From contig JACNHM010000188.1 of NCBI GenBank assembly GCA_014383605.1, forward strand, positions 1-25,808: DNA of 25,808 nucleotides. The letters run 5' to 3'. This DNA is from Chloroflexota bacterium (lineage in GTDB: Bacteria > Chloroflexota > Anaerolineae > UBA3071). Below the pieces are notes generated by a model that saw nothing but the letters and a program-made list of their open reading frames with translations, did no database searches and had not been told where the DNA came from. Of the stretch, positions 5,509 to 25,157 are shown in pieces. Positions within the stretch are counted from its first letter, which is position 1; each line of letters begins with the position of its first letter. The translations under genes were made by a program, and so were the position numbers.

Positions 5509-5580
5509 CCTATCTGAAAGAACAGAGTGCTGGCATCTTGCCAGCGGCTAGGAGCCGCCTCTGCGCACTTCTCAGATAGG
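5509..5580. other. Structured three-way-junction element between hydrolase and kinase genes
   Basis: An outer stem CCTATCTGA (5509-5517) / TCAGATAGG (5572-5580) encloses two hairpins: GCTGGC-loop-GCCAGC (5529-5545) and GCGGCT-loop-AGCCGC (5544-5558). It ends 18 bases before the kinase ATG. The folding is read by eye. It could be an intergenic repeat copy or an RNA control element, and no riboswitch family is recognised. Confidence 0.45.
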
Positions 5581-5598
5581 TTCCAAGAGGTAAGGATC

Positions 5599-6667: not shown

Positions 6668-6691
6668 ACGAACGTGTTCAGGTAGGAGGTT

Positions 6692-8478: not shown

Positions 8479-8549
8479 AACGTAATGCGTAAAGCGCATC
8501 TTACGTTTCACGTTTCACGCATTACGGATCACGCATCACGCATCACGGG
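8461..8549. repeat. Heptamer inverted-unit array overlapping the transketolase 3' end
   Basis: Five 7-base units (GTAAAAC, GTAATGC, GTAAAAC, GTAATGC, GTAAAGC; 8461-8495) are followed by seven units in the opposite sense (TTACGTT, TCACGTT, TCACGCA, TTACGGA, TCACGCA, TCACGCA, TCACGGG; 8501-8549). CGTAATGCGT (8467-8476 and 8481-8490) pairs with ACGCATTACG (8517-8526). The transketolase stop TAA (8476-8478) lies within the left half. The array ends 11 bases before the next ATG. Confidence 0.75.
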
Positions 8550-8560
8550 GAGTCATTGCC

Positions 8561-9853: not shown

Positions 9854-9888
9854 CCAAAGACGAATGACCAAACATTGAGGAGAGAGGT

Positions 9889-10848
9889 ATGCTGGTAACA
9901 ACAAGTGATCTGTTCAAACTTGCCTATGGACGCTACGCCATCGGCGCCTACAACATCAACAACATGGAACAAGCGCTGGGGCTGTTCCAGGGAGCCGTCG
10001 AGGCCCAGGCTCCGCTCATCGTGCAAATCTCCAAGGGCGCTCGATCTTATGCCGGCGTCAAGATGATCGAGCATCTCATCGCCGCCGTGCAGGAGATGTA
10101 CCCCGAGGTCATCTTCGCGCTGCACATTGACCACGGCGACGAAGCCACCTGCTACGACGCCATCGACTCTGGCGCCTACAGCTCGGTGATGATTGACGCC
10201 TCGCACGAGCCTTTCGAGAAGAACGTGGAGATCACCCAACGGGTGGTGGAACGCGCCCACGCCAAGGGCGTCAGCGTGGAGGCGGAGATGGGCATGCTGG
10301 GCGGCGTGGAAGAGGACATCCAGGTGGATGAGAAACATGCTCTGCTGACCGATCCCGACGAGGCCGCCGAATTCGTGCGCTTGAGCGGCTGCGACAGCCT
10401 GGCCGTGGCCATCGGCACCAGCCACGGCGCGTACAAATTCACGGGGCGGCAATCGCTGCACCTGGAGCGTCTGGCCGAGATCCAGCAGCGGCTGCCCGGC
10501 TTCCCGCTGGTCATGCATGGCTCATCCTCGGTGCCGCAGGAGGAAGTGGCGCGCATCAACGCGGCGGGCGGCGCCATGGATCCTTCCGCCCGGGGCGTGG
10601 ACGAGGACGAGTTCGCCAGAGCTGTGCCTTTGGGCGTGGTCAAGGTCAACATAGATACCGACGGCCGGCTGGTGTGGACGCGGGTGCACCGCGAGCACTT
10701 CCGCGATCACCCTGAAGACTTCGACTTCCGCAAGCCGGGCCAGATCATGATGGCCGAGTACGCGCGCTTCATCGTCCACAAGAGCGAGAAGCTGGGCTGT
10801 GCAGGCATGCTCACCGAGGTGCGCGCGGCGCTGATCAACAAAGAGTGA
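9889..10848 (+). CDS. Class II (zinc) fructose/tagatose-bisphosphate-type aldolase
   Basis: A 319-residue class II aldolase of the FbaA/GatY/KbaY family. HIDHGD (79-84) supplies catalytic Asp81 and zinc ligand His82, Glu133 in VEAEMG follows, and the other zinc histidines are His179 in GTSHGAYKF and His210 in VMHGSSSV. VKVNIDTD near 268-275 is the phosphate-binding stretch. It cleaves a ketose 1-phosphate or 1,6-bisphosphate to dihydroxyacetone phosphate and an aldehyde. AGGAGAGAGG upstream (ending near 9886) supports the ATG. A second, unrelated aldolase in the same cluster suggests that this one acts on a pathway-specific ketose phosphate rather than serving glycolysis. I cannot tell fructose from tagatose or other configurations by eye. 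Confidence 0.93.
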   Translation: MLVTTSDLFKLAYGRYAIGAYNINNMEQALGLFQGAVEAQAPLIVQISKGARSYAGVKMIEHLIAAVQEMYPEVIFALHIDHGDEATCYDAIDSGAYSSVMIDASHEPFEKNVEITQRVVERAHAKGVSVEAEMGMLGGVEEDIQVDEKHALLTDPDEAAEFVRLSGCDSLAVAIGTSHGAYKFTGRQSLHLERLAEIQQRLPGFPLVMHGSSSVPQEEVARINAAGGAMDPSARGVDEDEFARAVPLGVVKVNIDTDGRLVWTRVHREHFRDHPEDFDFRKPGQIMMAEYARFIVHKSEKLGCAGMLTEVRAALINKE

Positions 10849-10881
10849 TCGGAATATCCAACACGAGAAAGGAGACATCCC

Positions 10882-11844
10882 ATGCGTATCGGACTCTTCA
10901 CTGCTCTGTTCGGGGGCCAGCCTTTTGAGGAGGCCCTGGACCGGGCCGTCGCCGCCGGTGTGTCGGCGGTAGAGATCGGATCGGGGGGACTGCCGGGCCA
11001 TCCCCATTGCCCTGTGGACGACCTGCTGGACAGCAAGCAGGCGCGCCAGAAGTACCTGGACGCCATCACCTCGCGGGGCCTGATCCTCAGCGCCTTTAGC
11101 TGCCACGACAATCCGGTCCATCCCGACCCGGCGGTGGCCAGGAAGGCGGACGAGGACTTCCGCAAGTCGGTGCGTCTGGCCCATCTGATGGGCGTGCCTG
11201 TGGTCAACGCCTTCTCCGGCCTCCCAGCCGGTGGGCCGGACGACAAGTGCCCCAACTGGGTGACTTGCCCCTGGCCGCCGGACTTCCTGGAGATGCTGGA
11301 CTACCAGTGGAACGAGATGGCCATCCCCTACTGGACGGAGGCGGGCCAGTTCGCCGCGGATCACGGCATCAAGGTCGCTTTCGAGATGCACCCGGGCATG
11401 CTGGTCTACAACGTGGACACGCTGCTGCGTATGCGCGAGGCGGTGGGGCCGGTCATCGGCTGCAACTTCGACCCCAGCCACCTCTTCTGGAACGGGGTGG
11501 ACCCGGTAGCGGCCATCCGCAAGCTGGGCGAGGCCATCTTCCACGTGCACGGCAAGGATGTCTACGTAGACCCCTTCAACGTGGCCGTCAACGGCTGCAA
11601 CGACAACAAGCCCTACGACCGCATCCCCGAGCGTTCCTGGACCTTCCGCACCATCGGCTACGGCCACGGCAGCGAGGTCTGGAAGGGCATCATGAGCGCC
11701 TTCCGCATGGTGGGCTACGACTACGTCATCTCCATCGAGCACGAGGATGCGCTGATGTCCTCTGACGAGGGGTTGGCCAAGGCCGTGGCCGCCCTCAAGG
11801 AAGCGTGCATCTTCGAGCAGCCCGGCGAGATGTTCTGGGCCTGA
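10882..11844 (+). CDS. Sugar phosphate isomerase/epimerase (xylose isomerase-like TIM barrel)
   Basis: A 320-residue, full-length TIM-barrel isomerase/epimerase of the AP-endonuclease-2-like family. The metal site is visible as Glu168 in FEMHPGM, Asp197 and His200 in NFDPSHLFW, His223 in HVHGKD and Glu286 in SIEHEDA. The N-terminus (MRIGLFTALFGG) starts at beta strand 1, and AAAGGAG (10867-10873) precedes the ATG. Relatives isomerise aldoses and ketoses, epimerise ketoses, or act on inosose (IolE). In D-apiose catabolism a protein of this fold makes D-apulose ahead of a split transketolase, which is also present here. A D-apiose-like or other unusual aldose substrate is therefore a reasonable guess, but only a guess. 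Confidence 0.88.
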   Translation: MRIGLFTALFGGQPFEEALDRAVAAGVSAVEIGSGGLPGHPHCPVDDLLDSKQARQKYLDAITSRGLILSAFSCHDNPVHPDPAVARKADEDFRKSVRLAHLMGVPVVNAFSGLPAGGPDDKCPNWVTCPWPPDFLEMLDYQWNEMAIPYWTEAGQFAADHGIKVAFEMHPGMLVYNVDTLLRMREAVGPVIGCNFDPSHLFWNGVDPVAAIRKLGEAIFHVHGKDVYVDPFNVAVNGCNDNKPYDRIPERSWTFRTIGYGHGSEVWKGIMSAFRMVGYDYVISIEHEDALMSSDEGLAKAVAALKEACIFEQPGEMFWA

Positions 11845-11863
11845 TCTCGAAGTCAGAGGAAGA

Positions 11864-11913
11864 GCGGAACTAGCGGAAACAGGGGAACGGTTCCGCACCT
11901 TCCGCTTTTCCGC
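11864..11913. repeat. Nonamer-phased inverted-unit array
   Basis: GCGGAA at 11864-11869 and 11873-11878 and GGGGAA at 11882-11887 (9-base spacing) face TTCCGC at 11891-11896, 11900-11905 and 11908-11913. The two halves form a long imperfect stem with almost no loop. It fills the gap between the isomerase and class I aldolase genes. Confidence 0.65.
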
Positions 11914-11946
11914 TGATAGTGAGACATGGAGACAAATGGAGACAAG

Positions 11947-12747
11947 ATGAACGTTGGCAAACTAGTGCGGCTGAACCGCCTCTTCTCCCACCCCTCCGGC
12001 CGGCTGTGCTCGGTGGCCGTGGATCACTTCATCGGCTACCAGGCCGGCATACCGGACGGCTTGCGGCACATGCAGGAAGCTCTGGCGGCCATCGCCGCCG
12101 CGCAGCCGGACGCCGTGACCATGCACAAGGGCATGGCCTCTGCGGCCTGGGCTCCCTTCGCCGGCAAGGTGCCCTTGATCGTCCAGGCCATCATCGGGCG
12201 GCCCGACGATTCGGCCTATGAGCAGTTGAGCACGCCGGAAGATGCCATCCGGCTGGGCGCTGATGCCATCGCCATTTCCGCTTTCCTGCGCGGCCCCACG
12301 GAAGGACGCCGTCTGCGCACCATCGCCGACTGCGTGCGCGAGGCCGCCCGTTACGAGCTGCCGGTCATCGGCCACGTCTACCCCCGCGACGAGAACGACC
12401 TGTCCCGGATTTCCTTCGCTCCCGAAGATGTCGCCTGGGTCGTGCGCTGCGCCGCCGAGGTGGGAGTGGATGTGATCAAAGCGCCCTACTGCGGCGACGT
12501 GCAAGCCCATGCCCAGATCGTGGCCAGTTGCCCTGTGCCCCTGGTGGCGGCTGGCGGCCCCAAGCACGACACGCTGGAGGGGGCGCTGGGAATGATGGCC
12601 GAGGTGGTGCGGAGCGGCGCACGCGGCGCCACCATCGGCCGCAACGTCTGGAGCTTTCCCCAGATCACCAAGGCCGTGCTGGCCTTCAAGGCCGTCATCC
12701 ACGACGACCGGACGCCCCAGGAGGCCCTGCGGATCGCCGGCTTATGA
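11947..12747 (+). CDS. Class I aldolase, DhnA/FbaB-LacD-like family
   Basis: A Schiff-base aldolase of about 266 residues in the archaeal-type class I fructose-bisphosphate aldolase group (also LsrF and YihT relatives). SVAVDHFIG (22-30) holds the early Asp. Lys178 in VIKAPYCGD is the expected Schiff-base lysine. VAAGGPK (200-206) and GATIGRNVW (228-236) form the phosphate pocket. The ATG at 11947 has GGAG at 11938-11941, five bases upstream. The earlier ATG at 11926 has only a weak site, although it would add just seven residues. The stop overlaps the start of the next kinase (ATGA), so the two proteins are translationally coupled and probably act in sequence: kinase product, then cleavage. 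The kinase-aldolase pairing recalls YihV-YihT of sulfoglycolysis, but the substrate is not identifiable here. Confidence 0.85.
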   Translation: MNVGKLVRLNRLFSHPSGRLCSVAVDHFIGYQAGIPDGLRHMQEALAAIAAAQPDAVTMHKGMASAAWAPFAGKVPLIVQAIIGRPDDSAYEQLSTPEDAIRLGADAIAISAFLRGPTEGRRLRTIADCVREAARYELPVIGHVYPRDENDLSRISFAPEDVAWVVRCAAEVGVDVIKAPYCGDVQAHAQIVASCPVPLVAAGGPKHDTLEGALGMMAEVVRSGARGATIGRNVWSFPQITKAVLAFKAVIHDDRTPQEALRIAGL

Positions 12748-13667
12748 GTGCTCGTTGGGATGTGCTGGGCTTCGGCGCCGTGGCTGTGGATGACCTGATC
12801 TACGTGGATCAGCATCCCCTGCCTGGCAGCAAAATGCTCGTGCGCGACAAGCAGCGCCAGGGTGGCGGCCTGGCGGGAACAGCGCTGGTCGCCGCCGCGC
12901 GCCTGGGGGCTAAGACCGCCTACTGCGGCGTGCTGGGCGACGACGACCTGTCCCGTTTCACGCGCCGGGAGTTGGAGCGTGAGGGGGTGGACTGTGCGCC
13001 GATCCTCCACGATCCGGCGGCGCGGCCCATCCATTCCATCGTGATCGTTGATCTGTCCACGGGAGACCGCAGCATCCTCTTCTCGATGGCTGGTGTCAGG
13101 GAGCCGGGACCGGCGGATATCACGCCGGAACTGGTGGCCCGCTGCCGTGTGGTCTTCGTGGATCACACCCTCGTGGAGACAGGGGCACGCATCATCGAGC
13201 TGGCCCACGCCCAGGGAATCCCGGTGGTGGGTGACATTGAGGCGGTCCGCCATCCTCGCGTGCTTGATCTTGTGCATCAGATTGATCACCTGATCGTCGG
13301 GATGCATCTGGCTGGCCAGGTGACGGGAGAAGATGAACCGGCAGCCATGGTGCGTGCCCTTTCCGGGCCTGAGCGGGCCTGCTGCGTGGTGACCGCGGGA
13401 GAGCGTGGCTGTTGGTACACCCAGGGGGGCGGCGAGGTGTGTCACTTCCCGGCCTTCCGAGTCGAGGTCGTGGACACCACCGGCTGTGGCGACGTCTTTC
13501 ACGGTGCGTATGCGGCCTGCATCGCCGGCGGCCAAAGCGTCCGCCGGGCGGTTCAGATCGCCACGGCTACTGCGGGCATCAAAGCCACCCAGCCTGGCGG
13601 CCGCGGCGGCATCCCCGATCTCCCCACGGTGGAGCGCTTTCTGAGAGAACAAGGGTATGATGAATAG
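12744..13667 (+). CDS. PfkB-family sugar kinase (ribokinase/sulfofructose kinase-like)
   Basis: A 307-residue PfkB kinase, distinct from the one at 5599. The N-terminal half has DVLGFGAVAVDDLIYVD (6-22) and GGGLAGTALVAAARLGA (40-56). The C-terminal signature is DTTGCGDVFHGAY (244-256) with catalytic Asp250. The ATG at 12744 overlaps the aldolase stop (ATGA). I prefer it because it begins exactly at the first Rossmann strand. The frame stays open upstream to 12528, but that sequence is the aldolase gene read in another frame. It phosphorylates a sugar that the adjacent class I aldolase probably cleaves. It overlaps the URO-D-family gene by 11 bases, so three genes form one tightly coupled block. 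Confidence 0.9.
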   Translation: MSARWDVLGFGAVAVDDLIYVDQHPLPGSKMLVRDKQRQGGGLAGTALVAAARLGAKTAYCGVLGDDDLSRFTRRELEREGVDCAPILHDPAARPIHSIVIVDLSTGDRSILFSMAGVREPGPADITPELVARCRVVFVDHTLVETGARIIELAHAQGIPVVGDIEAVRHPRVLDLVHQIDHLIVGMHLAGQVTGEDEPAAMVRALSGPERACCVVTAGERGCWYTQGGGEVCHFPAFRVEVVDTTGCGDVFHGAYAACIAGGQSVRRAVQIATATAGIKATQPGGRGGIPDLPTVERFLREQGYDE

Positions 13668-14682
13668 CCGTGAGCGGGTCTGGGCCAGCATACGACATCA
13701 GCAGCCCGACCGGGTGCCCTACTACTTCAGTTTCACGCAGGCCGCCGCCGGCAAGCTGGCGGCCTACTACGGCACCGCAGACCTGGACGTGTTCCTCGAC
13801 AACGACATGGCGCGCTACAGCGTGCGCCGCCCGGCTTTGTTCGAGGAGGTGCGTCCCGGTTTCCTGCGCGACGAGTTCGGCGTGCTCTGGAACCGCACCG
13901 TGGACAAGGACATCGGCGTCCCAGAAGAGTACCCGCTGCAGCGCCGCTCGCTGAGCGACTACACTTTTCCCGACCCGCTCGATCCGAGACGCTACGCGGA
14001 GTTGCCCGCCTTCCTGGAAAAGCATTCCCAGCGCTTCCGCTACGTCAGCTATGGTTTCACGCTGTTCGAACGGGCCTGGACCTTGCGCGGTATGCCGGAG
14101 CTGCTGGTGGACATGCTGGAGGCTCCCGAATGGGTGGATGAGTTGTTCGACCGCCTGATGGCCTTCAACCTGGGCGTCGTGCAGGAGCTTCTGAAGTACG
14201 ACGTGGACGGTTTCCTGTTCAGCGACGACTGGGGGCATCAGCAGGGACTGCTCTTCAGCCCGCGGCTGTGGCACCGCTTCATCAAGCCGCGGCTGGCGCG
14301 ACTGTTCAGCACCATCAAACAGGCCGGCAAGGCGGCCTTCGTCCATTCCTGCGGCAAGGTGCAAACGCTGTTCCCCGACCTGATCGAGATCGGCCTGGAC
14401 GTGTTCAATCCTTTCCAGCCCGATGTGATGGACGTCTACGAGATGAAGCGGCAGTTCGGCGATCGGCTGGCCTTCTACGGCGGCATGAGCGTGCAGAACA
14501 CTCTCCCGCATGGCACGGTGCAGGAGATCCGGGCCGAGGCGCGCCGCCTGATGGATGAGATCGGCCGAGGCGGTGGCTTCATCATCGCCCCGTCCCATCA
14601 CATGCCCGGCGACATCGCGGTGGAGAACATGGTCGCCTTCATCGAGGCGGTGCGGGGGGATGGTAGATTGGTAGCTTGGTAG
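13657..14682 (+). CDS. Uroporphyrinogen decarboxylase-fold protein (MtaA/methyltransferase-like)
   Basis: A 341-residue protein of the URO-D superfamily. It has the N-terminal pattern RERVWASIRHQQPDRVP (5-21), FSDDWGHQQGLLFSPRLW (188-205), VHSCGKV (229-235) with His230 and Cys232, and a C-terminal APSHHMPGDIAVENM (311-325). HxC is the zinc site of corrinoid or coenzyme M methyltransferases of this fold, but the third ligand, usually a Cys near the C-terminal motif, appears as Ser-His-His here. No heme biosynthesis gene and no corrinoid protein is nearby, so it is not likely to be HemE. URO-D-fold proteins are found in other sugar clusters without known function. ATG at 13657 and 13660 are both possible. 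The final residues (about GRLVAW) and the stop come from an 8-base repeat. Confidence 0.85.
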   Translation: MMNSRERVWASIRHQQPDRVPYYFSFTQAAAGKLAAYYGTADLDVFLDNDMARYSVRRPALFEEVRPGFLRDEFGVLWNRTVDKDIGVPEEYPLQRRSLSDYTFPDPLDPRRYAELPAFLEKHSQRFRYVSYGFTLFERAWTLRGMPELLVDMLEAPEWVDELFDRLMAFNLGVVQELLKYDVDGFLFSDDWGHQQGLLFSPRLWHRFIKPRLARLFSTIKQAGKAAFVHSCGKVQTLFPDLIEIGLDVFNPFQPDVMDVYEMKRQFGDRLAFYGGMSVQNTLPHGTVQEIRAEARRLMDEIGRGGGFIIAPSHHMPGDIAVENMVAFIEAVRGDGRLVAW

Positions 14683-14701
14683 ATTGGTAGAGTGGTGAAG
14701 T
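14662..14701 (+). repeat. Octamer tandem repeat at the URO-D/kinase junction
   Basis: Five 8-base units, GGTAGATT, GGTAGCTT, GGTAGATT, GGTAGAGT and GGTGAAGT, run from 14662 to 14701. They encode the last residues and stop (14680-14682) of the upstream protein and touch the GTG proposed as the start of the next gene. Unlike the other arrays it has no inverted half. Confidence 0.75.
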
Positions 14702-15515
14702 GGGTGATAGACAGAGGGCTCACTCTGTTGTCTGGGAGCGCCTGGCTTGCTCACCTTTGTACCTGGATCAGACCGATGCCCGGTTGGAGGTGGATCGGGA
14801 CCAGGTCGAGCGCTTCTACCATCCACTGGCGGCCGCTTTGCTCTCCCAATCCAGGTCGGTGCCCCGGCTGATGGTAGCCGTGGCCGGCCCGCCCGGCAGC
14901 GGCAAGACCGCCTTCGCCACCATCCTGGTCGCCGTGATCAACGCCGAAGCAGATGATGACTCTGCTGTGCTGGTCGGCCTGGACGGCTGGCACTATCCCA
15001 ACGGTTATCTGGAAACCCATTTCGTGGGGCGGGACGGGCAGAGGATCGTTTTGCGCAGCATCAAGGGAGCGCCGGAAACGTTCGATGCGGCTGCGGCCTA
15101 TGACTGCCTGGCCGAGATGCGCCTCGGCGGGCGGGTGAGCTTCCCGGTCTACAGCCGCCGGCTGCACGAGCCGGTACCCGCCGGCGGGACGATTGCCCCT
15201 TGGCACCGCATCGTGGTGGTGGAGGGCAACTATCTGCTGCTGGACGAAGAGCCTTGGCTGCGCTTTCACGAGTTATTCGACGTGCGGGTGTTCATCTCCG
15301 CCGGCCTGGACACCCTGCTCGAGGGCCTGAGAGAACGACACTTGCGTGGTGGGAAACCGGCCGAGGGCACGGAGCAGCACATGCGCCGGGTGGATGTGCC
15401 CAACATCGGACGGGTGGTTAACAGCGCGGCGCAGGCGCAGGTGCTCGTCCACAAGTCGGATGTCCGGCGCATTGAGCGCATCGAGCCGGTGACGCCTTTT
15501 CAGTTTTGGGGATGA
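14700..15515 (+). CDS. P-loop kinase of the uridine kinase/phosphoribulokinase group
   Basis: A protein of about 271 residues with Walker A GPPGSGKT (63-70), an acidic GLDGWHYPNGYL segment (about 92-104) that resembles the substrate lid of uridine or pantothenate kinase relatives, RSIKGAPETFDA (119-130), and VVVEGNYLLLDEEPW (Walker-B-like). The pattern KGAPETFD with VEGNYLL is shared with 'nucleoside/nucleotide kinase family' proteins often found in sugar operons (FrcK-like). A sugar or polyol phosphorylation role is therefore likely. The start is uncertain: GTG at 14700 has only a GGTGA one base away inside the octamer repeat, and the true start could be internal (for example TTG at 14757). 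It is the last gene before the strong promoter at 15538. Confidence 0.8.
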   Translation: MGDRQRAHSVVWERLACSPLYLDQTDARLEVDRDQVERFYHPLAAALLSQSRSVPRLMVAVAGPPGSGKTAFATILVAVINAEADDDSAVLVGLDGWHYPNGYLETHFVGRDGQRIVLRSIKGAPETFDAAAAYDCLAEMRLGGRVSFPVYSRRLHEPVPAGGTIAPWHRIVVVEGNYLLLDEEPWLRFHELFDVRVFISAGLDTLLEGLRERHLRGGKPAEGTEQHMRRVDVPNIGRVVNSAAQAQVLVHKSDVRRIERIEPVTPFQFWG

Positions 15516-15537
15516 GGCAAAACCTTTCGACTTCTGT

Positions 15538-15566
15538 TTGACAGACCATGGAGAATCTGCTATAAT
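15538..15566 (+). promoter_or_regulatory. Consensus sigma-70 promoter with extended -10
   Basis: TTGACA (15538-15543), a 17-base spacer and TATAAT (15561-15566), all exact consensus, with TGC directly before the -10 (extended -10 motif). The expected transcription start is near 15573. It lies 22 bases after the kinase stop and drives the ABC importer genes, separating transport from catabolic transcription. Confidence 0.88.
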
Positions 15567-15575
15567 GCGGCCGCG

Positions 15576-15605
15576 TTGAAAACGATATCATGACATCGTT
15601 TTCAA
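15576..15605. promoter_or_regulatory. 30-bp operator-like palindrome at the transcription start
   Basis: TTGAAAACGATATCA (15576-15590) and the reverse complement of 15591-15605 (TTGAAAACGATGTCA) match at 14 of 15 positions. It would occupy about +3 to +33, where a bound repressor blocks initiation or clearance. The GAAAACG/CGTTTTC half-sites resemble LacI-family operators, but the arms are further apart than in the standard compact LacI site, so another family is possible. Confidence 0.78.
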
Positions 15606-15914
15606 AAGACAACGCCATCCAGATGGCTTCTGATGTCGTGATGTTTTTCGACAAGCTACCCCAGATCAATCGCTCCTCATTATGCTTTGTTTCTCCGAGG
15701 CTGGGCGGGCCACGCCGCGGTGGGATTGCCCACGCACGGGCAATTGGGCGGTGCCGGCTCTTCATCTGCAGAACACGAATCCGCTTGACCTATGACTCCA
15801 TGGCGTTGCATTTCGTGGAAAGGAGGTGCTGGAGAGCGTATCAAACCGAGGTAACCAACATCTGAGTAACCACATGACCACGTTTCCCAAGAAAACAACA
15901 AGGAGGAATGCAAG

Positions 15915-18593
15915 ATGTCGAAAAGAATAGTTCTGTTGCTGGCATTGGTCGCCGTTCTGGTTGTGGCCAGCTGCGCTAAAGAGGCTGAGCCGACCGAGGC
16001 CCCTGCCCCGGCCGCGCCGACCGAAACCCCAGTTGCAGTCGTGCCCGCAGCACCCGCCGTCGACGAGCTGGTGATCTGGTGGGCTGAATGGGATCCCGCC
16101 AACTACCTGCAGGAAGTCGGCAACATGTACGAAGAGGAGACCGGCATCAAGGTCACCGTCGTGCAGGAGCCGTGGGGCAGCTACTTCAACCGCGTATCGG
16201 CGGAGTGGGCGGCCCGTGGCACCGGGTTCGACATGGTCGTGGGCGACAGCCAGTGGATCGGCCAGGCCGTGACCGAGGGCCACTACGTGGACATGACCGG
16301 CTTCCTGACCTCCACAGGCCTGAAGGACACGGTCACTGCGGCGACGCTGACGTACTATGGCGAGTATCCGCCGGGATCGGGCAACTACTACGCCTATCCG
16401 ACCGAGGGTGACGCCAATGGCTGGGCCTACCGGACGGACCTGGTGGACAATCCTGACGAGAAGGCGGCCTTTGCGGCGGAGTATGGGTACGAGTACTCGG
16501 TGCCGCCGAAGGACTACAACGAATTCGTGGACATGTCGGAGTTCTTCTATCGCCCGGACGAGAACATCTACGGAGCGGCGGTGTACACGCAGAAGGACTA
16601 CGATGCGATCACGATGGGGTTCCAGAACTCGCTGTTCACCTACGGCTGCGACTGGAACGAGGCCTTCAAGGTTGACGGTGTGGTGAACAAGCCGGAGTGC
16701 GTGGAGTCGTTGGAGGCCTACAAGGCGCTGTACGACAGTGGTCCTCCCGGGAACACGAACAGCTTCTTCCCGGAGATGAACGACTACTTCATCAACGGGC
16801 AGGCGGTGTTCTCGATGAACTACTTTGCGTTCTTGCCGGCGCTGGCGAATCCGGGCACGGACCCGAACTACTGGGACAAGGTGGGGTTCTTCTCCAACCC
16901 GCCGGGGCCTTACGGGCAGCAGTATGCTTCGTTGGGCGGCCAGGGCACGAGCATCAACGCCTACATCAGCGACGAGCGCAAGGCGGCCTCCCTGGCCTTC
17001 ATCGAGTGGTTCGCGCAGGATGACATCCAGATGGAGTGGGCAGCGCTGGGCGGCTACACCTGCAACAAGAAGGCGCTGGCTTCTCCTGAGTTCCTGGCGG
17101 CTGCGCCGTACAATGCGGCGTTCGCCGAGACGATGGGGATGGTGAAGGACTTCTACAACATTCCCGAGTATGGCGAGCTGTTGCCTTCGGCGCAGGCTGC
17201 GTTGAGCAACTACGTGGTGGGTGGACAGGGCACGGCGCAGGAAGCGCTGGATGCCATCGCCGCCGAGCACGAGGCCATCTTCAAGACCTACGGCTACCTC
17301 AAGGAGGGCGAGGCCCCCGTGGGGATAACGCCTGACCTGGGCAATGTCGAGGAGTTGGTGATCTGGTGGGCCGAGTGGGATCCCGCCAACTATCTGCAGG
17401 AAGTCGGCAATATGTTCGAGGCGGAGACCGGCGTCAAGGTCACCGTCGTGCAGGAGCCCTGGGGCAGCTACTTCAACCGCGTATCGGCGGAGTGGGCGGC
17501 CCGTGGCACCGGGTTCGACATGGTCGTGGGCGACAGCCAGTGGATCGGCCAGGCCGTGACCGAGGGCCACTACGTGGACATGACCGGCTTCCTGACCTCC
17601 ACAGGCCTGAAGGACACGGTCACTGCGGCGACGCTGACGTACTATGGCGAGTATCCGCCGGGATCGGGCAACTACTACGCCTATCCGACCGAGGGTGACG
17701 CCAATGGCTGGGCCTACCGGACGGACCTGGTGGACAATCCTGACGAGAAGGCGGCCTTTGCGGCGGAGTATGGGTACGAGTACTCGGTGCCGCCGAAGGA
17801 CTACAACGAATTCGTGGACATGTCGGAGTTCTTCTATCGCCCGGACGAGAACATCTACGGAGCGGCGGTGTACACGCAGAAGGACTACGATGCGATCACG
17901 ATGGGGTTCCAGAACTCGCTGTTCACCTACGGCTGCGACTGGAACGAGGCCTTCAAGGTTGACGGTGTGGTGAACAAGCCGGAGTGCGTGGAGTCGTTGG
18001 AGGCCTACAAGGCGCTGTACGACAGTGGTCCTCCCGGGAACACGAACAGCTTCTTCCCGGAGATGAACGACTACTTCATCAACGGGCAGGCGGTGTTCTC
18101 GATGAACTACTTTGCGTTCTTGCCGGCGCTGGCGAATCCGGGCACGGACCCGAACTACTGGGACAAGGTGGGGTTCTTCTCCAACCCGCCGGGGCCTTAC
18201 GGGCAGCAGTATGCTTCGTTGGGCGGCCAGGGCACGAGCATCAACGCCTACATCAGCGACGAGCGCAAGGCGGCCTCCCTGGCCTTCATCGAGTGGTTCG
18301 CGCAGGATGACATCCAGATGGAGTGGGCAGCGCTGGGCGGCTACACCTGCAACAAGAAGGCGCTGGCTTCTCCTGAGTTCCTGGCGGCTGCGCCGTACAA
18401 TGCGGCGTTCGCCGAGACGATGGGGATGGTGAAGGACTTCTACAACATTCCCGAGTATGGCGAGCTGTTGCCTTCGGCGCAGGCTGCGTTGAGCAACTAC
18501 GTGGTGGGTGGACAGGGCACGGCGCAGGAAGCGCTGGATGCCATCGCCGCCGAGCACGAGGCCATCTTCAAGACCTACGGCTACCTGCCGTAG
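15915..18593 (+). CDS. Tandem-duplicated carbohydrate ABC solute-binding lipoprotein
   Basis: An 892-residue extracellular lipoprotein, twice the usual length of about 430. Signal peptide residues 1-20 end in the lipobox VASC (Cys20), followed by a Pro/Thr/Glu/Ala linker (21-48). Two family-1 (MalE/UgpB-like) binding domains follow, residues 50-462 and 479-891, joined by a linker of about 16 residues (463-478). Each begins ELVIWWAEWDPANYLQEVGN and carries the aromatic and acidic residues typical of sugar binders. AGGAGG at 15901-15906 sets the start. The domains differ at only four residues, all within the first 40; the rest is identical even at DNA level. Either one polypeptide really presents two binding domains to the permease, or two adjacent genes were fused by recombination or assembly. 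The permeases and ATPases follow directly. Confidence 0.85.
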   Translation: MSKRIVLLLALVAVLVVASCAKEAEPTEAPAPAAPTETPVAVVPAAPAVDELVIWWAEWDPANYLQEVGNMYEEETGIKVTVVQEPWGSYFNRVSAEWAARGTGFDMVVGDSQWIGQAVTEGHYVDMTGFLTSTGLKDTVTAATLTYYGEYPPGSGNYYAYPTEGDANGWAYRTDLVDNPDEKAAFAAEYGYEYSVPPKDYNEFVDMSEFFYRPDENIYGAAVYTQKDYDAITMGFQNSLFTYGCDWNEAFKVDGVVNKPECVESLEAYKALYDSGPPGNTNSFFPEMNDYFINGQAVFSMNYFAFLPALANPGTDPNYWDKVGFFSNPPGPYGQQYASLGGQGTSINAYISDERKAASLAFIEWFAQDDIQMEWAALGGYTCNKKALASPEFLAAAPYNAAFAETMGMVKDFYNIPEYGELLPSAQAALSNYVVGGQGTAQEALDAIAAEHEAIFKTYGYLKEGEAPVGITPDLGNVEELVIWWAEWDPANYLQEVGNMFEAETGVKVTVVQEPWGSYFNRVSAEWAARGTGFDMVVGDSQWIGQAVTEGHYVDMTGFLTSTGLKDTVTAATLTYYGEYPPGSGNYYAYPTEGDANGWAYRTDLVDNPDEKAAFAAEYGYEYSVPPKDYNEFVDMSEFFYRPDENIYGAAVYTQKDYDAITMGFQNSLFTYGCDWNEAFKVDGVVNKPECVESLEAYKALYDSGPPGNTNSFFPEMNDYFINGQAVFSMNYFAFLPALANPGTDPNYWDKVGFFSNPPGPYGQQYASLGGQGTSINAYISDERKAASLAFIEWFAQDDIQMEWAALGGYTCNKKALASPEFLAAAPYNAAFAETMGMVKDFYNIPEYGELLPSAQAALSNYVVGGQGTAQEALDAIAAEHEAIFKTYGYLP
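16062..17299 (+). repeat. Direct repeat copy 1 of the binding-protein domain
   Basis: Aligns with 17349-18586 at a constant offset of 1287 bases without gaps. By eye there are 11 differences in 16062-16172 and none from 16173 to 17299. Confidence 0.9.
17349..18586 (+). repeat. Direct repeat copy 2 of the binding-protein domain
   Basis: Second copy of the 1238-base unit. Positions 17460-18586 (1127 bases) read identical to copy 1, while 17349-17459 differ at 11 positions. The copies are separated by 49 bases encoding the linker. Confidence 0.9.
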
Positions 18594-18672
18594 CAGGTTC
18601 AATCTCAAAGAGATCGTTCGGGATGCGGTGTCCCCCACAGGGCCCGCTTCCCGGACCGATCTCGCTGTCGAC

Positions 18673-18701
18673 ACAGGGCGGCGGCAACCCCGCCGCCCTG
18701 T
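18673..18701. terminator. GC-rich hairpin between binding-protein and permease genes
   Basis: ACAGGGCGGCGG (18673-18684), loop CAACC, CCGCCGCCCTGT (18690-18701): a perfect 12-bp stem. No T tract follows directly (CCTTTTCC occurs 13 bases later). In importer operons such hairpins commonly protect the binding-protein mRNA and lower expression of the membrane genes, which fits the need for excess binding protein. Confidence 0.7.
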
Positions 18702-18740
18702 AGCATCTGCTGCCTTTTCCTGAAACGAGAGGCTTGTGGC

Positions 18741-19658
18741 ATGGACAATTCCACACAGATCGCCCCGGCGCCGCGCACCCGTCGCCGCCAGATCGGTGAT
18801 GCCGCGATCCAGCGGCTGTTTATTGTGCCCACCCTGGTGCTGCTGGTCATCTGGAACATCTTCCCGCTGTTCTACAGCCTGTACCTCAGCTTCACCCAGT
18901 ATTCGCACAGTGGTAAAGTGTCGCCGCTGTGGATTGGCACAGGCAACTTCGGTGCCCTCCTGACCAACCCCAAGATCTGGCAGAGCTTCGCCGTCACCGG
19001 GCGTTACGCATTGTTATCGGTGTTGCTGCAGACCCTGGTCGGCTTTGCCATGGCGCTGCTGCTGCATGCCAAGTTCAAGGGCAACGGGCTGCTCACGACC
19101 CTCATCCTGATCCCCATGATGCTCTCGCCCGCGGTGGTGGGTCTCTTCTGGAAGCTGATCTTCAACCCGCTCATGGGCATCTTCAATTATCTGATTGGAT
19201 TCTGGAATCTGGCGACGGCGCCCATTTGGCTGAAGGACCACGCCCTGTGGTCCGTTGTGATCGTCGACGTGTGGATGTGGAGTCCGTTTGTGATGCTGCT
19301 GTCTCTATCCGGTCTCAAAGCCATACCTGACTACATTTACGAGGCGGCGGCCATCGACCGAGCCAGCGGCTGGCGCCAGTTCTGGCGCATCACGCTGCCC
19401 CAGGTGGCGCCCCTGCTGATGCTCGCCGTGCTCTTCCGCACCATCGAGGCGCTCAAGGCCTTCGACCTGGTGATGGGCCTCACGGGCGGCGGGCCGGGCA
19501 ACGCTACCGAGACGGTGTCCGTCGCCCTCTACCGTATGGTCTTCCAGGGCCAGGCCCGCACCGGCGTTGCCAGCGCGCTCGCCTACATCATGTTGATCGT
19601 GATCGTCGGGGTGAGCAACGTCTACGTCCGGTATCTCAACAGGATGCAGGAGGCCTAG
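18741..19658 (+). CDS. Carbohydrate ABC transporter permease 1 (UgpA/MalF type)
   Basis: A 305-residue inner-membrane permease. Residues 1-28 are a charged cytoplasmic tail, then about six helices: FIVPTLVLLVIWNIFPLFYSLYLSF near 32-56, others near 85-110, 115-140, 165-185, 220-245 and 275-297. The EAA loop that docks the ATPase reads EAAAIDRASGWRQFWRITLPQ (about 199-219). NFG after the first periplasmic loop and the GGPGNATETVS segment are typical of MalF/UgpA carbohydrate permeases. GAGAGG (18727-18732) supports the start. It overlaps no neighbour; the second permease starts 1 base after its stop. It pairs with that protein to form the channel. Confidence 0.94.
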   Translation: MDNSTQIAPAPRTRRRQIGDAAIQRLFIVPTLVLLVIWNIFPLFYSLYLSFTQYSHSGKVSPLWIGTGNFGALLTNPKIWQSFAVTGRYALLSVLLQTLVGFAMALLLHAKFKGNGLLTTLILIPMMLSPAVVGLFWKLIFNPLMGIFNYLIGFWNLATAPIWLKDHALWSVVIVDVWMWSPFVMLLSLSGLKAIPDYIYEAAAIDRASGWRQFWRITLPQVAPLLMLAVLFRTIEALKAFDLVMGLTGGGPGNATETVSVALYRMVFQGQARTGVASALAYIMLIVIVGVSNVYVRYLNRMQEA

Positions 19659-19659
19659 C

Positions 19660-20673
19660 ATGGCGACAAACGCAAGAGACTCCAATTGGTCAGAGAGCGG
19701 ACCCGGCTCGCCGGTGGTGGACTCGGTGCGCGTGGACCAGGTTACCCCGCGCGCCAGGGCTGGCGTGACGGCGCGCATTGTCATCTCGATCCTGCTCACG
19801 ATTGTCATGCTCATCCCCGTGGTCTGGATGGCCATGACCGCGATCAAGTCGCGGCCCGATGCTACCGCTTCGCCGCCCAAGGTCTTCTTCAAACCGTCGT
19901 GGGATGGATTCATTGGCCTATTTGCTGATCGCAGCCAGCTGTCGTTCGGGAAGCTGAAGGAGTACCAGGAGCGCACCGACCTGAACTTCTGGGAGCAGCA
20001 GGCGCTGATACGGGGCATGCGTATCCTGGGGCCGAGCAAATTCGTCGGCAGGCTGCGCAACTCGCTGATCATCGCCGTGTCGTCGACGCTGCTGTCGGTG
20101 GCCCTGGGGGTATTGTCGGCCTATGCCTTCAGCCGCTACGACATCAAGGGCAAGGGCGACCTGCTCTTCTTCATCTTGAGCACCCGCATGTTGCCGCCGG
20201 TGGTGGTGACGATCCCCATCTTCCTGATGTACCGGGCGGTCGGCCTGTACGATACGCACATCGGCATGATCTTGCTCTATACGGCGTTTAACCTCTCGTT
20301 CTCCGTCTGGCTGCTCAAGGGCTTCATCGACGAGATCCCCAAGGAGTACGAGGAGGCGGCGCTGGTGGATGGCTACAGCCGGCTGCAGGCCTTCCGCAAG
20401 GTCGTGCTGCCCCAGGCGGCCACGGGCATCGTGGCCACGGCCGTCTTCTGCCTGATCTTCGCCTGGAACGAGTACGCCTTCGCGCTGATGCTGACCGGCG
20501 ACAAGGCCCGCACGGCGCCGCCCTCCATCCCGTCCATGCTGGGCGTTGGCGGCATCGAATGGGGTTCCATCGCCGCGGGATCGTTGCTCTTCCTGATCCC
20601 TGTGGTCATCGTGACCTTCGCCCTGCGCAACCACCTGCTGCGCGGCGTCACCTTCGGCGCGATCCGCCAGTGA
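19660..20673 (+). CDS. Carbohydrate ABC transporter permease 2 (UgpE/MalG type)
   Basis: A 337-residue inner-membrane permease, longer than the usual 270-290. A hydrophilic N-terminal extension (1-40) precedes the first helix (about 41-62). A long external segment (about 65-125; SFGKLKEYQERTDLNFWEQQ) then separates it from NSLIIAVSSTLLSVALGVLSAYAFSRY. The EAA loop is EYEEAALVDGYSRLQAFRKV (about 227-246), matching the MalG/UgpE pattern. AGGAGG at 19648-19653 lies in the end of the upstream gene. The lengthened first external loop could contact the oversized binding protein, but this is conjecture. Confidence 0.94.
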   Translation: MATNARDSNWSESGPGSPVVDSVRVDQVTPRARAGVTARIVISILLTIVMLIPVVWMAMTAIKSRPDATASPPKVFFKPSWDGFIGLFADRSQLSFGKLKEYQERTDLNFWEQQALIRGMRILGPSKFVGRLRNSLIIAVSSTLLSVALGVLSAYAFSRYDIKGKGDLLFFILSTRMLPPVVVTIPIFLMYRAVGLYDTHIGMILLYTAFNLSFSVWLLKGFIDEIPKEYEEAALVDGYSRLQAFRKVVLPQAATGIVATAVFCLIFAWNEYAFALMLTGDKARTAPPSIPSMLGVGGIEWGSIAAGSLLFLIPVVIVTFALRNHLLRGVTFGAIRQ

Positions 20674-20682
20674 GAGATCGGC

Positions 20683-20710
20683 AGAAACCGGGTTTCTAGC
20701 TCTGGTTTCT
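20683..20710. repeat. Short palindromic repeat between permease and ATPase genes
   Basis: AGAAACC-G-GGTTTCT (20683-20697) is a 7-bp palindrome, with a third GGTTTCT arm at 20704-20710. It fills most of the gap between the permease stop (20673) and the ATPase start (20733). It is too weak to call a terminator. Confidence 0.55.
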
Positions 20711-20732
20711 TGGTCTGAGGAAAGGCTAGAAT

Positions 20733-21851
<1,119 letters not shown>

Positions 21852-21863
21852 GAGGTATAGATC

Positions 21864-22925
21864 ATGAGTCAGATCACATTGCAGAACATCTCCAAGACCT
21901 TTGGGGACATCACCGCTCTCAGGAACGTATCCTTTGACATCCAGGACTCCGAGTTCTTCGTGTTGCTGGGGCCGACCGGCGCCGGAAAGACGACCACCCT
22001 GCGCGTGATCGCCGGGCTGGAGAAGCCCAACGAAGGCCACGTGCTGTTCGATGGGCAGTCCGTGGATGCGCTGGCGCCGGCGGATCGCGACGTCGCCTTC
22101 GTATTCCAGCAGTACTCGCTGTATCCGACCATGACGGTGTACGACAACCTGGCCTTCCCACTGCGCTCCCCCATGCGCAAGATCCGGGAGCCCGAGATCA
22201 AGGAGCGGGTCACCGAGACCGCCGAAAAGCTTCGCATCGGCCACCTGCTGAAGCGCAAGACCGCGCGCCTCTCCGGTGGCGAGATGCAGCGGGTGTCCCT
22301 GGGCCGGGCGTTGGTCCGGGAGCCGCGGCTTTATCTCATGGACGAGCCGCTTTCCAACCTGGATGCCAAACTGCGCGAGGCCCTGCGGGTGGAACTGAAG
22401 CACCTGCAGAAGACTCAGGGCAGCACCACGCTCTTCGTCACCCACGACCAGATCGAGGCGCTGACCATGGGCGATCGCATCGGAGTGCTGAACAAGGGGC
22501 GCATCGTGCAGATCGGCACGCCCGAGGACATCTACGACCGGCCAGCCATGACCTTCGTAGCCCAGCTCGTCGGCACGCCGCGTATCAACTTGCATGAGGC
22601 GTATTGTGAAAACAGCACGCTGCACGTGACCGGCAGCACGATTCACCTGCCCGTGCCCCAGGAAGGATGTCTGCCCTCTTCGTTCCTGCTGGGCGTGCGG
22701 CCCGAGGACGTGCAGATCCACGGCGAGGGCGATTTCCCCGGCGAGATCATTCTGGTCGAACCCCTGGGCGTGGAAACGATCCTGCACGTCAGGGCAGGGG
22801 AGAAGACCGTCGTGAGTTTGGTGTCCGGCATGACCGATCTGCGCCTCGGCGATCCGGTGAAGTTCGACATCATCCGCCAACGGCTGCATTACTTCCAGCC
22901 GGATGGCACGCGCATCGCGGTGTAA
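21864..22925 (+). CDS. ABC transporter ATPase 2 (UgpC/MalK type)
   Basis: A 353-residue partner of the preceding ATPase, starting 12 bases after its stop. Walker A is GPTGAGKT (36-43), Q-loop Gln82, signature LSGGEMQRV (136-144), Walker B LYLMDEP with Glu161, D-loop SNLDAKLR and H-loop His194. The TOBE domain spans about 240-350. GAGAGG at 21850-21855 precedes the ATG. Both nucleotide sites keep all catalytic residues, so neither subunit is obviously dead. It closes the importer operon; the next genes are unrelated. Confidence 0.94.
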   Translation: MSQITLQNISKTFGDITALRNVSFDIQDSEFFVLLGPTGAGKTTTLRVIAGLEKPNEGHVLFDGQSVDALAPADRDVAFVFQQYSLYPTMTVYDNLAFPLRSPMRKIREPEIKERVTETAEKLRIGHLLKRKTARLSGGEMQRVSLGRALVREPRLYLMDEPLSNLDAKLREALRVELKHLQKTQGSTTLFVTHDQIEALTMGDRIGVLNKGRIVQIGTPEDIYDRPAMTFVAQLVGTPRINLHEAYCENSTLHVTGSTIHLPVPQEGCLPSSFLLGVRPEDVQIHGEGDFPGEIILVEPLGVETILHVRAGEKTVVSLVSGMTDLRLGDPVKFDIIRQRLHYFQPDGTRIAV

Positions 22926-22980
22926 AACCGTCTGAAATGATCTTGACACACGATAGCTTCGGTTGTGGAGGAAACCTGTT

Positions 22981-23196
22981 ATGAATGTGGCACCGGTTGA
23001 TGAAGTCAGGCTCAAGGATGTGGTCAAATCAGCCGTTCTGGAAGTCTTCGAGGAGAGGCGAGACTGGCTGGCTGACGTGCTTGGCGAGGCATTATCGGAC
23101 GTTGGTTTCGGCTACGCTATCCAAGAGGGGGAGCAAACCGAGACAGTCAGCAGGGACGAGGTGTTTCAGATACTTGAGGCCGGGTCTAACACGTAG
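22981..23196 (+). CDS. Small antitoxin-like protein
   Basis: 71 residues from the ATG at 22981, which has GGAGGA at 22967-22972. An ATG at 22963 would overlap the ribosome site. The pattern LKDVVKSAVLEVFEERRDWLADVLGEALSDVGFGYAIQEGEQT-(x)-SRDEVFQILE resembles small helical type II antitoxins that usually sit immediately before a PIN- or RelE-type toxin gene. No such toxin follows. The next frame is a DUF4258 remnant. This could therefore be an orphan antitoxin left after toxin loss. Family assignment is from memory of the pattern. Confidence 0.6.
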   Translation: MNVAPVDEVRLKDVVKSAVLEVFEERRDWLADVLGEALSDVGFGYAIQEGEQTETVSRDEVFQILEAGSNT

Positions 23197-23204
23197 TTTA
23201 GCTG

Positions 23205-23357
23205 ATGATTGAGCACATACGCAACAAGATCCAAGCGGGGTTATTTGAATTCTCAAAGCACATTCAATGCAGTTACCCGTCTCGCCCGCTGCTGAAGATC
23301 GTTACCCTGTACGAACCGAACCCGGCCCAATGGGCTGATTTCAGGGTGAGAGTGTGA
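23205..23357 (+). pseudogene. DUF4258 family protein with in-frame internal deletion
   Basis: A 50-residue frame. The N-terminal part (HIRNKIQAGLFEFSKH) and C-terminal part (IQCSYPSRPLLKIVTLYEPNPAQWADF) correspond to the two ends of DUF4258 proteins, normally about 85-100 residues. The middle 40 or so residues (the usual AVDQ...RGI...EIEEAI...IEDYP...GRPLH block) are missing. The junction is His19-Ile20, near position 23262. The reading frame is kept across the deletion. The stop ends one base before the start of a YgiT-like gene, the common DUF4258-YgiT order of a putative toxin-antitoxin pair. It is probably inactive. Confidence 0.6.
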
Positions 23358-23358
23358 G

Positions 23359-23583
23359 ATGAAGGGTTATCAGTGGAAAGAGAGACTGGTAGAGAGAAGA
23401 GTCTCTTACATGCTTGAGGTGAACGGCCAACTCATTGTGGTTGACAATGTTCCAGCACGGGTGAATGTAGAAACTGGCGAGCAGTTATTCTCACCTGCTA
23501 CAGTAGAACGCTTGCAGGCGATGATCTGGGCACAGAAGGAACCCCAGCGTATCATTCAAGTTCCTGTGTACGAGTTTGTCTAG
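23359..23583 (+). CDS. YgiT/MqsA-type antitoxin-like protein lacking zinc cysteines
   Basis: 74 residues with the C-terminal part typical of YgiT-type zinc-finger proteins (YMLEVNGQLIVVDNVPARV, then GEQLFSPATVERLQ and PVYEF). The family normally has two CxxC pairs. Here there is no cysteine at all: the N-terminal pair is replaced by GYQWKERL, and VC..CGE reads VNVETGE. It follows the deleted DUF4258 gene by one base. It may still fold, but as a zinc-less derivative. It may be decaying with its partner or belong to a zinc-independent subgroup. Confidence 0.65.
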   Translation: MKGYQWKERLVERRVSYMLEVNGQLIVVDNVPARVNVETGEQLFSPATVERLQAMIWAQKEPQRIIQVPVYEFV

Positions 23584-23744
23584 GCCAAAGGAGCGGGAAT
23601 CGCCAGACACATGCCAGCCAACCACGCTGTGCCCTCGTTTCGGGGTGGCGGCTGACCTTTGGGATGGTTACCGTGAGAGGGCATTGCTCGGCGCATCGGC
23701 GTCTGCTCCAGACGTTCAAGAAATCTCATCACTGGAGGTTGAAC

Positions 23745-25157
23745 ATGGCGAAAGTTGCGATCATCGGCGCGGGAAGCATCGTCTTCTGCAAGACGCTGAT
23801 CCTGGACATTCTGGCCACCGGTGGCCTGGAGGATACCGAATTCGCCCTCATGGCCCCCAGCACCCGCCGGACGCCCTACGTGGAGTCTTTCGTGCAACGG
23901 GTGATCGAGGCCAACGACCTGCCGGCCAGGGTCTGGCTGACCACCGACAGCCGCGAGGCAGTGAAGGGTGCTGACTACGTCATCACCACCTTCCAGGTGG
24001 GCGGCATCGAGGGCTTTGCAGCCGACTACAAGATCCCGCTGAAGTACGGCGTGGATCAGTGCATCGGCGACACGCTGGGGCCGGGCGGCGTCTTCCGCGC
24101 CCTGCGTTCCATCCCCGTGATGATGGACCTGGCCCGGGACATGGAGGAGCTCTGCCCGGAGGCGCTGATCCTGCAGTACGTCAATCCCATGGCCATGGTC
24201 TGCTGGGCGCTGGGCACCACCAACGTCAACTTCGTGGGCCTCTGCCACGGCGTGCAGACCACGCTGGACCTCATCTCCGGCTACGTGGGCGTGCCCAAGG
24301 AGGAGATAGATCAGCTCTGCGCCGGCATCAACCACATGGGCTGGTTCCTCAAGCTGGAGCACCACGGCCAGGACCTCTATCCCCTGCTGCGGGAGCGGTT
24401 CGAGCTGCCCGAGTACTACGTCAACGAGAAGGTGCGCGGCGAGGTCTTCCGCCATTTCGGCTACTTCATGACCGAGTCCACGGGCCACCTGGCGGAATAC
24501 GTGCCCTGGTTCCGCAAGAACCAGATGGCCCTCGACCTCTACTGCGACGAGCCGGCCTTCGGCGGCGAGAGCGGCGCCTACTACGCCTGGTGCAAGTACG
24601 TGGCCGAGAAGTACGCTTCGGGCGACATCCTGGCCGACGAGCCGGTGGAGCTGCCCTCCCGCAGCGTCGAGTACGGGTCGTACGTCATCGAGGCGCTGGA
24701 GACGGGGCGTACCTTCAAGTTCAACGGCAACGTGCGCAACGGCGGCATGATCGCCAACCTGCCGCCCGACTGCTGCGCCGAGGGGCCGATGTACGCCGAC
24801 GGCGCTGGTCTGCACAAAACCATCGTCGGCGACCTGCCGCCGCAGTGCGCGGCGCTGAACATGACCAACATCAACGTGCAGCGGCTGGCCGTGCAAGCGG
24901 CCCTCACCGGCGACCCCGAGCACATCGTCCAGGCCATCGCCCTGGATCCGCTGACCTCTGCCGTGCTCACCCTCAAGGAGATCCGGGAGATGGCCACGGA
25001 GATGCTGGAGGCGGAGCGGCAGTGGCTGCCGCAGTTCGCCGGCAAGACCATCCGCCCGACGCCCACCATCAGCATCCCCGAGGACGTCCAGCGGACCGAG
25101 GTGCCCATTGACCCGGCCCTGGCCATCATGGCCAGGTTCGGTGAACTGGCCGAGTAG
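23745..25157 (+). CDS. GH4 family NAD/Mn-dependent glycosidase (alpha-glycosidase type)
   Basis: A 470-residue family 4 glycosidase. These enzymes cleave glycosides by NAD-dependent oxidation and elimination and need Mn. The Rossmann start is VAIIGAGSIVF (4-14). GPGG (112-115) follows, then NPM (147-149), the metal motif CHG with Cys167-His168 in GLCHGVQ, and GINHMGWF with His197. CHG, rather than the CNVP of 6-phospho-beta-glucosidases or CHEV of phospho-alpha-glucosidases, points to an unphosphorylated alpha-glycoside or uronide. GGAGG at 23734-23738 supports the ATG at 23745. The 27 upstream codons from 23664 add a basic stretch unlike the family. It probably hydrolyses the sugar brought in by the importer, and the toxin-antitoxin remnant seems to have been inserted between them. 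Confidence 0.9.
   Translation: MAKVAIIGAGSIVFCKTLILDILATGGLEDTEFALMAPSTRRTPYVESFVQRVIEANDLPARVWLTTDSREAVKGADYVITTFQVGGIEGFAADYKIPLKYGVDQCIGDTLGPGGVFRALRSIPVMMDLARDMEELCPEALILQYVNPMAMVCWALGTTNVNFVGLCHGVQTTLDLISGYVGVPKEEIDQLCAGINHMGWFLKLEHHGQDLYPLLRERFELPEYYVNEKVRGEVFRHFGYFMTESTGHLAEYVPWFRKNQMALDLYCDEPAFGGESGAYYAWCKYVAEKYASGDILADEPVELPSRSVEYGSYVIEALETGRTFKFNGNVRNGGMIANLPPDCCAEGPMYADGAGLHKTIVGDLPPQCAALNMTNINVQRLAVQAALTGDPEHIVQAIALDPLTSAVLTLKEIREMATEMLEAERQWLPQFAGKTIRPTPTISIPEDVQRTEVPIDPALAIMARFGELAE

Follow-up and report, generated by a model that had tools for sequence, protein, structure and literature searches.

Architecture of the binding-protein gene

The DNA analysed here, called the window throughout, is a stretch of 25,808 nucleotides from a Chloroflexota bacterium, and the subject of this work is an open reading frame on its forward strand (15915-18593) that encodes two complete solute-binding domains of the CUT1 type in a single chain of 892 amino acids, the two copies lying at an offset of 1287 bases. 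Since two permease genes and two ATPase genes follow downstream (Table 1), the gene is taken to encode the solute-binding component of a CUT1 importer for sugars. An earlier note, made from the sequence alone, had described two domains at a constant offset, and this was borne out by the Pfam matches: SBP_bac_8 and SBP_bac_1 are each found in two stretches, with 168.5 bits (cut-off 27) and 135.4 bits (cut-off 26), respectively.

The copies fall into two parts with very different degrees of identity. In the first 111 bases, which we call the head, 11 sites differ (positions 16064, 16068, 16085, 16088, 16106, 16124, 16129, 16133, 16135, 16146 and 16172 of the first copy), whereas the following 1127 bases, the body, are identical and form the longest identical run at offset 1287 in the window; the run stops within the last codon shared by the copies, for Leu. 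Third codon positions account for 7 of the 11 differences. Seven are silent and four change a residue (16064 D/E, 16129 Y/F, 16135 E/A and 16146 I/V). The earlier note had given these counts, with mostly third positions affected, and they are correct to the base. If the 11 differences were spread evenly over the 1238 bases, the probability of finding all of them in the first 111 would be 1.9e-12, and chance clustering was rejected on this ground. Selection at the protein level was likewise rejected as the source of the identity of the bodies, since all 375 codons of the identical block agree at their silent sites as well. Beyond this repeat, a BLAST comparison of the window with itself brings up the two ATPase genes, which are paralogous (67% over 646 bases), and, at 6555/6617, a repeat of 51 bases.

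Judged by sequence, each domain is a complete binding protein, and for domain 1 a structural model points the same way. When domain 1 was modelled alone with AlphaFold (75 sequences), the predicted local distance difference test score (pLDDT) was 96.8 and the model had the two-lobed fold of carbohydrate-binding proteins; the modelled domain differs from domain 2 at 4 of 412 aligned residues. Its lists of structural neighbours from Foldseek and VIA-align are headed by 5iai, MalE3 and others, and 5iai and Thermotoga MalE3 are also the closest solved relatives of the domain, at 22-26% identity. The model of the full 892 residues (11 sequences) was poor, with a mean pLDDT of 55.2, and was left unused. 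The VASC motif at Cys20 was matched by eye to what we take to be a lipobox; an equivalent of this Cys is present in 10 of the 11 proteins of alignment A1, P0007 being the protein without it. The predicted ligand is a carbohydrate or polyol; the neighbouring genes belong to sugar metabolism.

Occurrence of the tandem layout

Ten further proteins, 57-99% identical to that of the window, have the tandem layout as well, and so do three partial ones. In the first of three protein searches, each of which scored only the roughly 8000 candidates with most words in common, 8 of 69 matches were two-domain proteins (P0001-P0008; 827-930 residues). A search of one class of 396 genomes gave a match in 44, two of which carry a two-domain gene (loci L015 and L016), while the other 42 have a single-domain match in an open frame of 363-579 residues, including one (G027) cut by the contig end; genome searches of this kind score few candidates per genome (two in this one), so extra distant copies could be missed. 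Two proteins, P0009 and P0012, are fragments that start in domain 1, pass through the linker and enter domain 2. An apparent loss of frame in copy 2 was found in P0011 and, by eye, in P0002, P0003 and P0004.

The linkers of 14 tandem proteins measure 10-36 residues and are alike within clades, across data sources; between the window and P0004 only the last part (LGNV-E) is common. Data from three sources (ncbi, ena and jgi) contain full or nearly full tandems, on contigs of up to 493,905 bases. The seven named relative loci are, by their titles, metagenome-assembled genomes (five Anaerolineae, one Chloroflexi and one Trueperaceae), and all are single-domain: when the genomes of L001-L007 were searched, 7 of 7 matched, every match extending over one domain. 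A single-domain gene is also present on a contig of 4.67 Mb (G234), which indicates that single forms are not all collapsed tandems.

Searches in other taxa gave no new tandem of this family. Matches were found in 2 of 10 genomes in the family of G001, in 1 of 2 in the order of G025 (G025 itself), in 6 of 25 in the order of G331 (a tandem in G331 only, nothing new), in 4 of 400 in the phylum of G001 (only G534 being new) and, at E <= 1e-140, in 4 of 158 in the class of G534. A profile search yielded no new full tandem among the best 120 of 746 matches, and none of the viral contigs matched the six peptide patterns used. Judged by titles or the starts of abstracts, none of the papers retrieved for tandem binding proteins, for concerted evolution or for Anaerolineae describes such a protein.

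A search with the L016 protein, under a length limit that shuts out most single-domain proteins, gave 35 matches at E <= 1e-60, without a new tandem of the window's family but with a protein of 981 amino acids (P0184) that also consists of two near-identical binding domains. Its copies differ at one of 447 aligned residues, the 7th; with part of the tether in the alignment, the identity is 98.6% over 432 residues. P0184 is known here from the protein only; it has SBP_bac_1 domains and 28% identity to the L016 protein, and unlike the tandem of the window it belongs to a separate family, presumably of separate origin. In the class of G001, 1 of 396 genomes matched P0184 at E <= 1e-120, at a single-copy locus. 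Other fusions of the binding domain were seen in P0010 (N-terminal of Peripla_BP_4), P0038 (C-terminal of it) and P0176, the partners being Peripla_BP_4 and a protein kinase domain.

Differences between the copies

The step in identity observed in the window is repeated in L016, the protein of which is 62% identical to that of the window: all 10 differences between its copies occur in the first 104 of 1243 bases, followed by 1139 identical bases. The copies of L015 differ at 12 of 1263 bases, with seven of these sites in the first 97, one at 951 and four between 1230 and 1254. At the protein level the copies of L015 and L016 each differ by one residue, as do those of P0005, P0006 and P0008, in these three near the 3' end, whereas P0007 has 16 differences, all within its last quarter. 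The values for P0002 (18/293), P0003 (9/321) and P0004 (6/220), whose comparisons were cut before the frameshift, include the head plus interior sites. Across the tandems the bodies are therefore much alike and the edges often differ, with divergent patches persisting in some; patchwork borders are visible in the DNA of the window, L016 and L015 and in the protein sequences of P0002, P0003 and P0007.

Two positions of the head distinguish the copies in the clade of the window, in which the tandems with both heads are the window, P0001, P0002, P0003 and P0004. All five have Y/I in copy 1 and F/V in copy 2, and the P0009 fragment shows the F/V state in copy 2 as well. The F/V head occurs in 10 of the 150 heads that fit the pattern, namely the six copy-2 heads just named and four single-domain proteins (P0137, P0084, P0147 and P0158). 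In P0137 a linker like that before copy 2 directly follows the signal peptide, which would fit either a loss of copy 1 or a former copy 2 without a partner.

The bodies behave differently. Those of the window and P0001 are distinguished by 4 of 376 residues, and every change is mirrored in both copies; 40 changes are mirrored in this way between L016 and P0005 and 55 between L015 and P0006. With the exception of the window/P0001 pair, the bodies of the tandems in the window's clade are 13-21% apart. In a tree of domains, from which P0036 and the second copies of P0002 and P0003 (below the length cut) were left out, each copy has its own partner as closest neighbour in 9 of the 9 proteins with both copies included.

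Origin of the tandem and alternative explanations

The combination of head states that are specific for the copy and body changes that affect both copies leads us to infer an old duplication with homogenised bodies. For the window's clade, the duplication seems to predate the members, and the copies appear to be closer to each other within a genome than between relatives that, by their heads and linkers, would share the duplication. In the proposed course of events an in-frame tandem duplication would have occurred before the clade split, after which recombination between the copies, either gene conversion or unequal crossing-over with gain or loss of a unit, would keep the bodies of about 1.1 kb alike, while the first 110 bases or so, lying beside non-homologous flanks, would usually escape. 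We consider it likely that the gene arose in this manner and that it encodes a fused two-domain lipoprotein serving the downstream importer. The earlier note had suggested an older duplication homogenised by gene conversion, and this finds support in the recurrence of the layout, the heads shared by the clade, the mirrored body changes and the step in L016; unequal crossing-over fits equally, as a passage through three units would leave a trace no different from that of gene conversion. Selection for different heads was considered as well and may play a part.

Several observations weigh against this explanation. Single-domain genes sit among the tandems in the tree and tandems are rare in genomes; near-identical single forms exist beside L016 (P0014) and L015 (P0071), and together with the scatter in the tree they suggest that part of the tandems could be young. 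The F/V marker is absent from six tandems outside the window's clade (P0005-P0008, L015 and L016), where the age of the duplication thus rests on the linkers, and the F/V head is not confined to tandems, as the four single-domain proteins show. The interior differences between the copies of P0002, P0003 and P0007 imply that homogenisation is incomplete. The tandem of P0184, for its part, could reflect repeated duplication in recent times just as well as repeated homogenisation. P0036, a protein of 715 amino acids, carries about one circularly permuted tandem unit inside an unrelated repeat protein, which is either a misassembly or a strange insertion. Finally, simulated copies about 1% apart share 81% of their 21-mers, and copies so similar could be fused during assembly; a few differences might then be concealed in the body, and the true number of units could be higher or lower than two.

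An alternative, which we regard as rather improbable, is that tandems arise repeatedly from single-domain genes, are selected for uptake and are soon lost again, the differences between the heads being due to the mode of duplication or to exchange with single-domain genes. The scatter of tandems in the tree, their presence in only 2 of 44 matching genomes, the near-identity of the copies in the unrelated P0184 and the single-domain genes with F/V heads all agree with such a course. On the other hand, F/V marks copy 2 in every one of the five window-clade tandems in spite of the divergence of their bodies, and linkers are alike within clades, a pattern that requires either a shared tandem ancestor or repeated chance. 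For clades other than that of the window, recent duplication may still hold.

It is also not very probable that the fusion is non-adaptive, with the second domain carried along as a passenger of the duplication and a single working head. The frame losses in P0002, P0003, P0004 and P0011 concern copy 2 while copy 1 is whole, and single-domain relatives manage with one domain. Indel errors in long-read data would, however, mimic frameshifts, and finding frameshifts in copy 2 only is to be expected, as a frameshift in copy 1 would remove the protein from the search; moreover, alignment A1 has 11 proteins, 8 of them with both copies complete.

A false copy number, or an exact identity that is not real, is in our judgement less probable still. 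Here differing copies would have been collapsed by the assembler, or one copy walked twice through a loop in the graph. The seven named relatives are metagenome-assembled and the window may be so too, the bodies show no mismatch in 1127 bases, P0014 and similar single forms resemble a skipped loop, and the permuted unit in P0036 looks like the product of a misjoined one. P0014 may be either a collapsed assembly or a case of real loss. Against an artefact stand the simulated copies 10% apart, a distance like that of the heads, which share 11% of 21-mers and on average a fraction of 0.00 of 55-mers; such copies should stay apart, and the step itself is then unlikely to be a product of assembly. 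The in-frame linkers, alike within clades across sources, the interior differences retained in P0002, P0003 and P0007, and the spread of tandems over three data sources and long contigs argue in the same direction. The other possibility raised in the earlier note, that an assembler joined two adjacent paralogous genes, was rejected, as the reading frame continues through the linker and relatives have similar ones.

Possible function and known systems

The fused protein would have twice the number of binding sites per lipid anchor with unchanged specificity, as analogy with GlnPQ suggests. The identical bodies speak against different specificities of the two domains. Both domains would bind the same carbohydrate or polyol; with two equal ones on each anchor, binding sites would be locally more numerous around the permease, and one domain might load while its partner delivers. 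Either domain might reach the permease by way of the tether (about 30 residues) and the linker (18 residues). Anaerolineae are generally regarded as single-membrane bacteria, in which binding proteins need anchoring, and this would favour an anchored design with two heads.

The closest parallel is GlnPQ of Lactococcus lactis, in which SBD1 and SBD2, connected by a 14-residue linker, are largely independent of each other, with four sites near the pore (PMC8025302). As in GlnPQ, two binding domains stand in series in one chain, on a short linker (14 residues in GlnPQ, 18 in the window), and would serve one ABC importer. The GlnPQ domains are fused to the permease, whereas the gene in the window ends at 18593 and the permeases are separate open reading frames from 18741 and 19660; furthermore, they differ in specificity and affinity, while those of the window are nearly identical in sequence. 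OpuA of the same organism likewise reportedly uses two substrate-binding domains per importer (PMC11065425). The protein of the window would resemble it in providing two binding domains for one importer, in this case on one chain. In OpuA each subunit of a dimer reportedly carries a single domain as part of the permease chain, unlike two in one chain. The single-domain CUT1 locus L001 of G001 (82% identity) has the same domain and the same downstream importer genes as the window, but only one domain.

With respect to sequence evolution, the operons for ribosomal RNA in bacteria are a reported case of concerted evolution by gene conversion (PMC8022953). The copies in the window would similarly be kept alike by recombination within one genome, but they follow each other in the same orientation within a single protein-coding gene, and the repeat edges would be spared. 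If real, the tandem offers a natural experiment on the number of binding sites per anchor, with equal domains, single-domain controls and an importer of separate subunits, as well as an example of concerted evolution within one bacterial gene in which the unconverted edges date the duplication. It also illustrates that near-identical tandem domains are easily miscounted in metagenome assemblies.

Possible exchange of bodies between lineages

Homogenisation within the gene may be accompanied by exchange of bodies between lineages, which we mention as a lead. In P0002, P0003 and P0004 the copy-1 heads are identical (0/36 differences) and the signal peptide and tether are 93-96% identical, the bodies being 84-87% identical, or 14-17% apart in the comparison that also covered the heads. 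The window and G025 have the same operon order with flanking proteins that are 77-94% identical (L057 1-19001 against window 8561-25157) and have the upstream genes, promoter and GH4 gene in common, and the binding protein, the permeases and the first ATPase are 60-70% identical. In G001, by contrast, the binding protein (81-82%) and GH4 (77%) go together. The organism of the window is probably close to that of G025, and the transporter core seems to have been replaced in one of the two, the window or L057. A wider proposal, that bacteria of the Chloroflexota type possess a self-homogenising class of two-headed binding lipoproteins which arose more than once (the window's family and P0184), with a constant signal peptide, tether and head, an exchangeable body and paired changes of specificity, is speculative and in our opinion rather improbable.

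Importer genes and upstream region

The coordinates of the gene, its parts and the neighbouring features are collected in Table 1. A promoter-like site and an inverted repeat are located about 310 bases 5' of the binding-protein gene; the repeat could be an operator or a hairpin in the 5' part of the RNA. The same promoter-like site is found in L057 (7515-7543, 12/12 matches), with a similar but less perfect inverted repeat, and L058 has no site as good, the best giving 9/12.

Table 1 Features of the two-domain binding-protein gene and its surroundings in the window
Feature	Position	Strand	Basis
Whole gene of the two-domain solute-binding protein, 892 aa	15915-18593	+	Open reading frame, Pfam
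Signal peptide with lipobox-like VASC, ending at Cys20	15915-15974	+	By eye from translation
Ala/Pro-rich tether from presumed lipid anchor to domain 1	15975-16058	+	Translation
Domain 1 head (first beta-alpha-beta unit), 11 differences from domain 2 head	16062-16172	+	Sequence, predicted secondary structure
Domain 1 body, identical to domain 2 body	16173-17299	+	Sequence
In-frame 18-residue linker KEGEAPVGITPDLGNVEE, final two residues within repeat unit	17301-17354	+	
Domain 2 head, F/V type	17349-17459	+	Sequence
Domain 2 body, identical to domain 1 body	17460-18586	+	Sequence
Permease 1 of presumed cognate importer (UgpA/MalF-like)	18741-19658	+	BPD_transp_1; best NCBIfam UgpA, below cut-off
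Permease 2 (MalG/UgpE-like)	19660-20673	+	BPD_transp_1; NCBIfam matches below cut-off
ATPase 1 (UgpC/MalK-like)	20733-21851	+	ABC_tran, OB_MalK; best NCBIfam UgpC, below cut-off
ATPase 2 (UgpC/MalK-like)	21864-22925	+	ABC_tran, TOBE_2; best NCBIfam UgpC, below cut-off
Consensus sigma-70 promoter-like site TTGACA-N17-TATAAT	15538-15566	+	12/12 matches; TG before second hexamer
Inverted repeat after promoter-like site, arms of 11 around 8 bases	15576-15605	+	By eye

The window contains no tRNA, no tmRNA and no Rfam family at gathering score. Upstream of the importer, positions 5527-15515 hold a sugar or polyol catabolic cluster with two PfkB kinases, a split transketolase, a DRL-type oxidoreductase and two aldolases, together with xylose-isomerase-like, URO-D and PRK/uridine-kinase-like proteins.
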